Source: Salmonirosea aquatica
GTDB lineage: Bacteria > Bacteroidota > Bacteroidia > Cytophagales > Spirosomataceae
Direction of reading: 5' to 3'
DNA length: 64,000 nt
NCBI RefSeq assembly: GCF_009296315.1
Contig: NZ_WHLY01000002.1
Location: forward strand, 6,236,501 to 6,300,500
The position numbers were made by a program, and so were the translations under genes. Each line of letters opens with the position of its first letter. Position 1 is the first letter of the stretch. This document shows, piece by piece, positions 23,465 through 41,659 of the stretch. The notes under the pieces are model-generated. The model saw nothing but the letters and a program-made list of their open reading frames with translations, was not told where the DNA came from and searched no databases.

Positions 23465-24519
23465 ATGGCTGTTAGCTCAAGCTCTCTATTTCATTTTACT
23501 AGTGGTGGTTCGGAAACTCTAAAACTTATTCTCGAAAATGGGTTTTTAGTTAAAAAAAGCAATGAAACATATCCTATAACAGCACCAGAAAAAGTAATTA
23601 ACCTTCAGGGGGGTTCAGGACATTATAAAACTCTTGAGATGAATTATAGCATTCCGATGGTATGTTTTTGCGATATACCACTCTCAATTATAAGTAAGCA
23701 TGCAGAAATTTATAGCTCATCTGACAAAAAGTGTTTGGAATAGGCATGAAGAAGGATTGGGGAACTAGTCATCACTTAAATCCCATGATTTATTTAGCAA
23801 ACAATTCTTTTCTTTCTGAAATAATATCAACAATTAGTCAAGACCTATTAGGGTTAACCACTCTTAAATTTAATATTCAAGGTATTCTGAATTATTTCAA
23901 ATATGTTAAAAATTTCGAAGATACGGATGTATTAAAATATATCAATCAAATTGATTTTTTAATAAACAAAAAATCAATTAGTGAGTCAAATGTTATTGAA
24001 ACAAGGATAAACTGTGGCAATGGCTATATAGGTTTGCAAGGATATAGACATATACTTTTTACAAAACCATACATTGGAGATTATAATGTCAAGGGGAAAT
24101 ATACAATTAATGATTATATTTTTTATAATGAAAGAGAATGGAGATATATACCACTCAATTTAACGGAAATTGATATGCTTATGACTCCTATGTCCCCAGC
24201 ATTTTATAGATTTTTTAAAGAAAAGTACAATGATGTAAGGTCAGAAGCTGATATTCAGAAAGTAGCATATGAAAACTATATTAAATCTTTGGATATTCCG
24301 TACAATAATAATTCAGCTTTTTTAAATTTTACTCCTAATGACATTTCGTTTATAATTGTTCATGGACAAAAAGATGTAGAAGATCTAATAGACCATATTT
24401 TAAATAAAAAAACAGTGGGTATTGGCGGAAAGAAAATAGAATCCGATAAGGAGCGTTATGCCTTAATTTCTAAAATCCTATCCTATGAACAAATAAAAGA
24501 AGACATCTTCTCCCACTAA
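23465..24519 (+). pseudogene. AbiGi-family abortive-infection gene, frameshifted at about 23725
   Basis: The first frame reads SLFHFTSGGSETLKLILENG and ends IPMVCFCDIPLSIISKHAEI plus SSSDKK before a stop at 23743. The -1 frame continues FGIGMKKDWG...LNPMIYLAN to 24519. IPMVCFCDIP and (Y/F)GIGxKKxWG are the hallmarks of the AbiGi family. One extra A in the AAAAA run near 23724 would restore DKKVFGIGMKKDW, about 350 aa overall. AbiGi is the antitoxin-side partner of the lactococcal AbiG system; no AbiGii partner is visible. The gene is AT-rich, on the opposite strand to terminase, and is clearly cargo. Real decay or a sequencing error are both possible. Confidence 0.75.
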
Positions 24520-24551: not shown

Positions 24552-25121
24552 TCAAAACAACCCCATCCCCGAAGGATCATCAATCGCCTTCATCGCCCGC
24601 TTCCTGAACTCTTCCTCCCGATCCGCCGGCACGTGGTTTTCCAGCCGGGTACCTTCCCGGAAGAAGTGCCCCCAGCCCCGCTTCAGCTGGCGGCCGCGCT
24701 CGTTATGCTTGTCGTAGGCCATGTCGGGTACCTCCAATTTCCGGAACGGATGCGTCAGCCAGGCCCACAGCAGTGCCCAGTCCACCAGGCGACTCTTCCG
24801 CGACCGGCACAGCAGCAGCACCGCGTGGGTCAGGAACAGCCGCTGGGGCTCGTTCTTGTCCTCCTTCTTCTTGGCCTGCTCCCTATACATGCAATACAGC
24901 GCCCAGATCTCACTGCTGATCATTGGCTCGGCCAGGCCCACATCCTCGCTGGACATGATCCGGAGCCGCTTCCACACGTACTCCCCGTAGCCACTGGCGT
25001 ACAGCTCCACCGCCCAATGCAGCGCTTCGTCCTCCATCCCCCTACGGATGCACTTTTGCAGGGCCGAGCTAATCTCGAAGAAGTCATACCCGCCCTGGGT
25101 CGTTATATCGTACTTACCCAT
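24552..25121 (-). CDS. Protein resembling the RarA/MgsA C-terminal domain, without ATPase
   Basis: The 189-residue protein (MGKYDITTQGGYDFFEISSA) has ISSALQKCIRRGMEDEALHW, then LYASGYGEYVWKRLRIMSSE and DVGLAEP. This is the pattern of the tetramerisation/C-terminal region of the replication-associated AAA+ protein RarA (SAxxKSxRxxDxxAAxYW...RRLxxxAxEDxGLA). No Walker motifs are present, so only this domain is kept. It may act on the host's RarA or in phage DNA handling; this is inference. It overlaps the upstream SymE-like gene by 8 nt. Confidence 0.6.
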   Translation of the reverse strand: MGKYDITTQGGYDFFEISSALQKCIRRGMEDEALHWAVELYASGYGEYVWKRLRIMSSEDVGLAEPMISSEIWALYCMYREQAKKKEDKNEPQRLFLTHAVLLLCRSRKSRLVDWALLWAWLTHPFRKLEVPDMAYDKHNERGRQLKRGWGHFFREGTRLENHVPADREEEFRKRAMKAIDDPSGMGLF

Positions 25122-25302
25122 TTTTGATGATGATTTTACCTGGTTGAACCATGATTTCCACGCCTTCGCCGATCGCAAAACCCGCCGCTTCCAGCCAGTT
25201 GCCCATCAGCTTGATTTCCGGTACCCGTTTCACCTGCCGGAAAACATTCCGGCGCACCCGGTACCCGATGCGTAATGCTCGATTTTTCTGTATTTTTGCC
25301 AT
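25114..25302 (-). CDS. SymE-like toxin-domain protein
   Basis: The 62-residue protein is basic at its N-terminus. VPEIKLMGNWLEAAGFAIGE followed by GVEIMVQPGKIIIKN matches the SymE family pattern (LxGxWLxxAGFxxGxxVxVxVxxGxIxI), an AbrB-like swapped-hairpin fold. In E. coli SymE is an SOS-induced RNA-associated toxin repressed by the antisense RNA SymR. Here a + strand hairpin with six T's (25343-25368) and a TAnnTTTG box (25291-25298) flank the start codon. The leader carries the recurrent CTAATTCTAAGCG-ATG motif. Phage use could instead be as a small regulator. Confidence 0.7.
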   Translation of the reverse strand: MAKIQKNRALRIGYRVRRNVFRQVKRVPEIKLMGNWLEAAGFAIGEGVEIMVQPGKIIIKNG

Positions 25303-25303
25303 C

Positions 25304-25368
25304 GCTTAGAATTAGTTAACTGTGATTGGTTGATTAATTTGACCCCGGCCTGCCAGCCGGGGTTTTTT
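25304..25368 (+). ncRNA. Candidate antisense RNA over the SymE-like gene's leader
   Basis: A perfect TAnnTTTG box, TATTTTTG at 25291-25298, points along the + strand. About 65 nt after its expected start there is a strong intrinsic terminator (CCCCGGC-CTGCCA-GCCGGGG-TTTTTT, 25343-25368). The RNA would be complementary to the 5' leader of the SymE-like mRNA, ending just upstream of its AUG, the arrangement known for SymR/symE. No clear -33 box is visible, and the box overlaps codons 2-4 of the gene, so chance is possible. Confidence 0.4.
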
Positions 25369-25463
25369 CTTGCCTCGTATAGGGGTATACGTTTAAATTT
25401 GCCACGCTTATTCTATTTGTCAGACTCGCTCTGACAATAGTGTAATAGTAGTACACTGGAAAG

Positions 25464-25484
25464 CCCGCTCTTTGAGCGGGTTTT
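25464..25484 (-). terminator. Hairpin after two-gene small operon
   Basis: CCCGCTC-TTT-GAGCGGG lies 6-26 bp beyond the stop at 25490 (minus). T's are present on the + side (GGGTTTTCC), weaker ones on the minus side. It could serve either strand. Confidence 0.45.
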
Positions 25485-25489
25485 CCGTT

Positions 25490-25654
25490 CTAAAAAAGCT
25501 TCGTCTGATCGTCCCGCTGAAACAGGGGTAGGTCCGAGTAGCCCTTTTTCCTATCCCGCAGCACCCCGCCCAGGGCGTTGGGTTGCTCTTTTAGCAATTC
25601 CCGGAGCGCCTTCTGATCCTCCGGCGTAAGCTTCTTAAAATCCTTTGGTTTCAT
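25490..25654 (-). CDS. Small protein of 54 aa
   Basis: It starts MKPKDFKKLTPEDQKALREL and ends RDDQTKLF. Highly charged and helical. ATGA overlap with the gene upstream (stop TGA at 25653-25651, start ATG at 25654) shows coupling. Function unknown. Confidence 0.6.
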   Translation of the reverse strand: MKPKDFKKLTPEDQKALRELLKEQPNALGGVLRDRKKGYSDLPLFQRDDQTKLF

Positions 25655-25824
25655 CGTTTGGCCAGTTTTTTGAGTAACAGAAATTCATTGACCTTGCCCT
25701 GGGCAATACCCCACGATAGCCTGAGCGACATCGAGAAGCTCACGATCCCATGTTTAAAAAGCCCCCAGGCTTTCTGCATGACCACCCGGAGCCGCGACCG
25801 CCATTGTTCACTGATTTTTCGCAT
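25651..25824 (-). CDS. Small basic helical protein of 57 aa
   Basis: It starts MRKISEQWRSRLRVVMQKAW and ends LLLKKLAKR. Amphipathic with regularly spaced Trp (WRSRL, AWGLF, SWGIA). The type is common in Bacteroidota mobile DNA, with no known role. It is first in a two-gene operon and preceded by a leader shared with the gene at 27684. Confidence 0.55.
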   Translation of the reverse strand: MRKISEQWRSRLRVVMQKAWGLFKHGIVSFSMSLRLSWGIAQGKVNEFLLLKKLAKR

Positions 25825-25935
25825 GGTACTTAGATGTTAAGTGACTGATTTTTAATTCCTTACTGATATAAATTTCTTCATACAGAACGGATTTAAAAAG
25901 CACCAATTCGTTTATTTTCAGCGATTTATGAAAAT
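25825..25935 (-). promoter_or_regulatory. Promoter/leader module, copy A
   Basis: On the minus strand this region contains TAAATCCGTT, then AATTTATATCAGTAAG and CAGTCACTTAACATCTAAG before the ATG. The same three blocks in the same order and spacing precede the gene at 27684 (27685-27790). This suggests a duplicated promoter plus leader giving co-regulation. Confidence 0.55.
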
Positions 25936-41570: not shown

Positions 41571-41659
41571 TATTTTTGTAACGTCAAACCCGATTCCATG
41601 TCAACGCTTGCCCGCTGAAGACATTCCCGGCCCCCTGTGACCAGCAGGGGGCTTTTTTT
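41571..41659 (+). ncRNA. Candidate small RNA with promoter box and terminator
   Basis: TATTTTTG (41571-41578) is an exact TAnnTTTG box. About 75 nt later GCCCCCTG-TGACCAG-CAGGGGGC-TTTTTTT (41630-41659) is a strong + strand terminator. No open frame or other + gene lies upstream that would need this terminator. There is no convincing -33 element. Confidence 0.4.

Follow-up and report, generated by a model that had tools for sequence, protein, structure and literature searches.

Leader-binding antisense RNAs include RNA-OUT of IS10, a short, stably folded RNA that covers the mRNA start. The closest described system to the locus studied here is SymE/SymR of Escherichia coli, a type I pair of a toxin gene and its accompanying antisense RNA. 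According to passages of PMC1891008, SymR has its promoter box in the start of the gene and its terminator in the leader. E. coli SymE is described in passages of PMC11894785 as a DNA-binding, nucleoid-condensing protein for which RNase activity was not found. Moreover, Rv0078B, another SymE-family protein, acted as an antitoxin (passages of PMC6504116); thus, SymE-family proteins need not be toxins.

The window analysed here, a whole stretch of 64,000 nucleotides, covers contig positions 6236501-6300500 of a 7.07 Mb genome. On its minus strand, a methyltransferase gene is followed by a 57-aa gene, a 54-aa gene, a leader, symE and mgsA_C (Table 1). A sequence-only reading had proposed that this prophage carries a SymE-like gene with a SymR-like antisense RNA. 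The prophage setting holds, since a terminase gene lies near symE and related loci are present among IMG/VR viral contigs.

Table 1. Features at the symE leader of the window.
Feature	Coordinates	Strand	Remarks
mgsA_C gene, about 189 aa, encoding just the C-terminal domain of RarA/MgsA	24552-25121	-	ATG overlaps the symE stop (ATGGGTAA)
symE-family gene, 62 aa	25302-25114	-	first gene behind the leader; start codon 25302-25300
Putative antisense promoter, -7 box TATTTTTG	25291-25298	+	reverse complement of symE codons 2-4
Predicted antisense RNA, about 69 nt	25303-25371	+	start placed from the box at -12 to -5
5' stem-loop of the predicted antisense RNA, 14 pairs	25309-25340	+	includes G-U pairs impossible on the sense strand
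Intrinsic terminator of the predicted antisense RNA	25341-25371	+	hairpin 25341-25364, then T-run; from the sequence and relatives
Possible second, older tandem antisense unit	25393-25493	+	box TAAATTTG at 25394-25401, hairpin about 25460-25484; R2 21.9 bits, E 0.14, chance level
54-aa gene upstream of the leader	25490-25654	-	without a match in Pfam or NCBIfam
57-aa gene, possible first gene of a putative operon	25651-25824	-	promoter-like motif ATCCGTTCTG at 25892, putative promoter

Several other observations concern the surroundings. A motif of the form ATCCGTT(T/C)TG ... TTTATATCAGT, which resembles a phage sense promoter, precedes two genes of the window (27751 and 25892, minus strand), and similar stretches also precede genes in loci L053, L055 and L077. 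An AbiGi-type gene (PF10899; AbiGi by PADLOC), encoded opposite to mgsA_C on the plus strand and situated between it and the terminase region, is divided between two reading frames (23465-23743 and 23731-24519). The same genome also holds a decayed second copy of the prophage region (L036 3410-5130, contig 6471409-6473129), which is 79-82% identical over three pieces; its symE is truncated, and its antisense RNA still scores 75.6 bits with the covariance model described below, of which L036 is a member.

The open reading frame taken to be SymE-like was present, and its 62-aa product matched PF08845 (SymE family) with 58.3 bits at a curated cut-off of 29. With the NCBIfam SymE equivalog NF010128, the protein reached 38.8 bits, under the curated cut-off of 132. 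Its predicted structure has the order b-b-a-b-b (mean pLDDT 68); the best PDB matches of this model were of the AbrB/MazE/SpoVT type and not significant (E 0.67 and worse), and when SymE was searched as a profile against solved structures, a single match resulted (E 0.19). Because E. coli SymE is described as DNA-binding and the model leans weakly to AbrB/MazE, we favour, with low certainty, that SymE may be the DNA-binding partner of a RarA-type protein over its being a stand-alone toxin. The product of mgsA_C matched PF12002 (35.7 bits, cut-off 27), and its gene overlaps symE in 18/18 of the symE-bearing loci. It lacks the ATPase part, and similar stretches occur in Microbacterium and Arthrobacter phages under genes annotated as AAA-ATPase; a structure model of MgsA_C was too poor and was discarded (mean pLDDT 49). 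That SymE and MgsA_C would form a pair of DNA-binding protein and recombination-type partner is a guess.

Searches with the SymE protein alone found no close relatives among the viral contigs or genome contigs searched; within the family, 36 of the 222 genomes had a match to it, and the top identity outside its own genome was 50%. Therefore, the mgsA_C protein was used as the anchor for relatives. Removal of near-duplicates left 48 loci with a core of 28, of which 18 have symE and 10 do not; mgsA_C identity is 55-89% among the compared core loci. A SymE profile, whose 13 rows were drawn from this core set, detected SymE at the expected place in 18/18 and none in the available DNA of the 10 others; L042, a core locus, is cut by a contig end. 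Named relatives with the locus are Persicitalea, Dyadobacter, Arundinibacter, Runella, Fibrella, Spirosoma, Larkinella, Arsenicibacter and Flectobacillus; Runella and Arundinibacter belong to the Spirosomataceae (Cytophagales), and one record sharing the locus is labelled Cellulophaga. One Arundinibacter genome contains five mgsA_C prophage loci (L072-L075 and L090), one with symE and four without. The compared loci are not independent, because the phages are related and three loci (L072-L074) are near copies from one genome, 96-99% alike at this locus.

As had been claimed, an exact TAnnTTTG, the -7 box of the Bacteroidota primary-sigma promoter, lies in codons 2-4 of symE on the plus strand. 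Passages of PMC9723704 place this box at -12 to -5 relative to the start, and the predicted RNA would thus begin beside the start codon of symE. Conservation of box and terminator had been set beforehand as a check, and we counted boxes in 27 related loci (L042 left out on account of the contig end). The hairpin is kept, contrary to one of the refuting conditions set in the sequence-only reading, and an exact box lies 38-46 nt from it in 14/27 loci, while 300 shuffles gave a mean of 0.33 and a maximum of 3; with at most one mismatch, the count at this distance is 21/27 (shuffle mean 5.0, maximum 11). In the 14 loci with an exact box near the hairpin, the distance is 39-45 nt. Taking boxes 30-59 nt from the stem, 16/27 loci have an exact one, 9/27 one with a single mismatch and 2/27 one with two. 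Other exact boxes in the first 70 nt occur solely at 35 and 57, once each, and an exact box was present within -25 to +40 at 3/148 other ORF starts of the same loci. A chance box in an AT-rich gene start was set aside on these shuffle counts (27 loci) and this control (148 starts).

The coding sequence does not explain the box, because the position of the start codon relative to it varies between loci: the codon precedes the box in L040, falls within it in L044, L045 and L057, and sits at its end in L060 and L061. Moreover, in the sister locus L007/L041 codons 3-4 are changed and the box is kept. The -33 element of Bacteroidota primary-sigma promoters is TTG/TTTG. TTG at -33 is absent from the window's own promoter; in 22 loci (L046, L052, L058, L072 and L074 left out), TTG at a spacing of 18-20 was present in 7, compared with 1/22 and 0/22 at two control spacings.

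The strong terminator foreseen at the far end of the RNA is also present, and the predicted RNA, which covers the mRNA leader, is about 69 nt, close to the claimed 65. In 24 loci (L042, L059, L058 and L052 left out), the T-run lies on the antisense side of the leader hairpin in 23/24 and on the sense side in 0/24, with a mean T count of 5.25 on the antisense side versus 2.33 on the sense side. By comparison, 55 hairpins located after other ORFs in these loci had a mean T count of 4.05 sense versus 2.35 antisense, with the run on the sense side in 37 and on the antisense side in 9.

The predicted RNA folds into two hairpins (-28.2 kcal/mol, z -4.98), and the sense leader has little structure between hairpin and start. 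We examined the 5' part in 26 loci, i.e. 25 sequences (L042, L058 and L112 left out) and L036. The antisense strand had the lower energy in 26/26, which comes partly from letters that allow G-U pairs; the z-scores compare each strand with shuffles of the same dinucleotides. Their mean was -2.29 for the antisense strand versus -0.26 for the sense strand, and a folded sense leader was set aside on these values. The antisense z was below -2 in 15/26 loci and above -2 in 11/26; it was above -1 in L049, L052, L053 and L111, and L052 also has a box with two mismatches. Among 112 control leaders, 65 folded better on the antisense strand, the mean z was -0.51 antisense and -0.66 sense, and 15% were below -2; the control values are from 100 shuffles with a standard-deviation floor and those of the 26 loci from 200 shuffles without this floor.

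Of 280 stem pairs, 61 are G-U and would be A-C on the sense strand. Between L044 and L046, four one-sided changes leave all 22 antisense pairs intact; likewise, the antisense pairs are kept in 20/20 cases between L043 and L073 and in 39/42 among the window, L036 and L041. Selection on an antisense RNA and selection on the mRNA are usually hard to tell apart, since the two share their letters; here they are separable, because the fold is strand-specific.

Covariation was scored in an alignment of 10 sequences from one sub-group; a second sub-group was aligned and kept out of the count. The score of this 10-row alignment was 0.424 versus 0.216 in shuffles, none of 500 shuffles was as high, and structures slid along the alignment reached at most 0.176. 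Pairs changed on both sides numbered 7 versus a shuffle mean of 5.0, a count reached by 35/500 shuffles. A covariance model R1 was unused, as its 23-row alignment was poor and held 6 pairs only. The model from the 10 sequences, R2, matched the window, itself a member of the model, at 25291-25375 with 80.2 bits. In the 222 genomes of the family and with strict filters, it gave 13 matches, 12 of which are already-known leaders; a weak R2 match in G174 was set aside, as it falls where a long receptor-like ORF ends. Because leaders of the Spirosoma type were not matched in this search of 222 genomes, it speaks for one sub-group only. In a search of 47 sources, the matches outside the training set were the near copies L045 and L074, followed by L054, L058, phage 6H and L061 (E 0.007-0.041); L048 (E 0.19) and L060 (E 0.31) were matched at the right place, but an off-target match in L053 scored at least as well (E 0.13). 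Altogether, comparison of the loci gives strong sequence evidence that the antisense RNA gene is real.

A scan of the window for units of box, spacer and terminator returned the unit at 25291 and two others, at +41571 and -27884, and overlooked a weaker candidate at 25394. The units at 41571 (plus strand, spacer 50) and 27884 (minus strand, spacer 35) are sRNA-like and lie outside the ORFs called there. The candidate at 25394 belongs to the possible tandem unit in Table 1, which has an extra inverted repeat and whose box is altered in L036. A pattern of box and RNA start occurred in at least 120 stretches, and among the matches listed none had an accepted hairpin; this pattern fixes the spacer at 4, misses the window's own unit and carries no weight either way. 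At the gathering threshold, Rfam, which may or may not include a SymR family, had no match near the leader, and identity with an Rfam family was set aside, as all matches were sub-threshold.

The sequence-only reading took the arrangement for a SymR-like toxin-antitoxin system. In a true type I pair on the model of E. coli SymE/SymR, the RNA would serve as a dedicated antitoxin to a toxic SymE, and loci without symE would be relics after toxin loss. We regard this as unlikely. The protein does belong to the SymE family, and an apparent remnant of a SymE start behind the box in L053, as well as the truncated symE beside an intact RNA in L036, would fit recent loss. Against this, the exact box is kept without symE in seven loci (L043, L053, L059, L118 and L072-L074), which amount to about four independent types because L072-L074 are near copies and L059 and L118 are alike. 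In L058, the slot of symE is taken by a radC-like gene (PF04002, 122.8 bits), with the unit recognised there by one match (E 0.012). Moreover, a one-mismatch scan detected the unit at the symE start in 11/13 cases inside the phage group and in 0/45 SymE genes outside it (L276, which had no match, and the duplicates L006, L277 and L280 left out; L254 repeats the window). A strict cassette scan of low sensitivity recovered 4/13 symE loci of the group and, outside the group, phage 6H only, at another place. Furthermore, the SymE family includes an antitoxin, Rv0078B (PMC6504116, in passages).

In total, the antisense RNA does not accompany symE as it does in SymE/SymR. Of the earlier proposal, the SymE family, the prophage and a conserved antisense unit in the SymR layout stand; the dedicated SymE/SymR pair is not supported, given a unit that is kept in symE-less loci, probably also before a radC-like gene, and that is missing from the 45 outside SymE genes. 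Since symE overlaps mgsA_C in all 18 loci that have it, and the unit persists without symE and is absent from these other SymE genes, the RNA is to be assigned to the operon's leader.

An RNA made at this place might also act mainly in trans on other targets, or its transcription might interfere with that of the operon, with little effect on symE-mgsA_C translation. Among 25 units, the two-hairpin fold is better conserved than the sequence itself (median pairwise identity 0.57), which speaks for this alternative; however, a cis-acting RNA also allows loose letters, and there was no convincing second site in the 222 family genomes searched with the one-sub-group model and strict filters. We consider this alternative improbable, and more so than a type I pair. 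Finally, that the hairpin is the terminator of the upstream 54-aa gene, the box a chance or translation-start motif and the antisense RNA non-existent is very improbable: the hairpin does lie close behind the upstream stop codon in many loci, and TTCTAAG just before several sense-strand start codons (across the whole window no commoner than chance, 12 versus 9.81) suggests that translation may hold parts of the leader, but the T-run points the wrong way in 23/24, the fold is strand-specific with covariation, and 145/148 other ORF starts have no box.

We conclude that this is probably a cis-antisense RNA that keeps the symE-mgsA_C operon from being translated, rather than an antitoxin dedicated to SymE. 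Host RNA polymerase would initiate at the TAnnTTTG box in the first symE codons and be stopped by the leader terminator. The product, a two-hairpin RNA of about 69 nt, would be complementary to the symE-mgsA_C mRNA leader as far as the start codon. Pairing would hide the translation start of the first gene, and mgsA_C would be shut down together with symE because the two genes overlap. According to PMC6847099, Bacteroidota are without Shine-Dalgarno sequences and tune initiation by mRNA structure; a duplex at the leader should, for this reason, block initiation. The operon would remain off as long as the sense transcript does not exceed the antisense RNA, and would open e.g. at induction. The RNA would be a property of the leader, kept whether symE, mgsA_C or probably a radC-like gene leads.

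More tentatively, the unit could represent an undescribed family of Bacteroidota phage cis-antisense RNAs, i.e. a portable leader lock of antisense promoter, strand-specific 5' stem-loop and terminator that would silence whichever gene leads a symE/radC-like/mgsA_C operon. This family would extend from Spirosomataceae prophages to Flavobacterium phage 6H, with the radC case and the reach to 6H each given by one match with E about 0.01. The layout of SymE/SymR may then be a particular instance of these leader locks, with SymE acting not as a toxin but as a RarA-type protein's DNA-binding partner. If true, the locus would let antisense control of a phage operon be tested readily in a phylum that lacks Shine-Dalgarno sequences, and would caution that a SymE-family annotation accompanied by an antisense RNA is not in itself a toxin-antitoxin pair.

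Among known systems, E. coli SymE/SymR has the same layout, as had been stated, judging by the passages of PMC1891008, and also shares the SymE-family gene. It differs from the present locus, where symE and a second gene overlap, the RNA persists in relatives without symE and the protein is under the cut-off of the NCBIfam SymE equivalog. The novelty expected of a setting in a Bacteroidota phage turned out to be narrower. Flavobacterium phages (6H, laban6-1 and others) likewise have a SymE-family gene, annotated there as a type I addiction toxin, and the SymE gene is therefore not new; by contrast, the conserved antisense RNA appears new, as no description of such an RNA in Bacteroidota phages was found in the titles, abstracts and few passages of the open-access literature searched. 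Phage 6H also resembles the window in having an antisense unit (spacer 54; 27.2 bits, E 0.014) over the leader of the gene that precedes symE. However, in 6H and laban6-1 there is no unit at the symE start itself, and symE overlaps the preceding gene and is followed by a DUF932 gene (6H) or an ArdC-type gene (laban6-1) instead of mgsA_C. Finally, the predicted RNA is like IS10 RNA-OUT in being a short, stably folded RNA over the mRNA start, in another element, with other genes and in another host.
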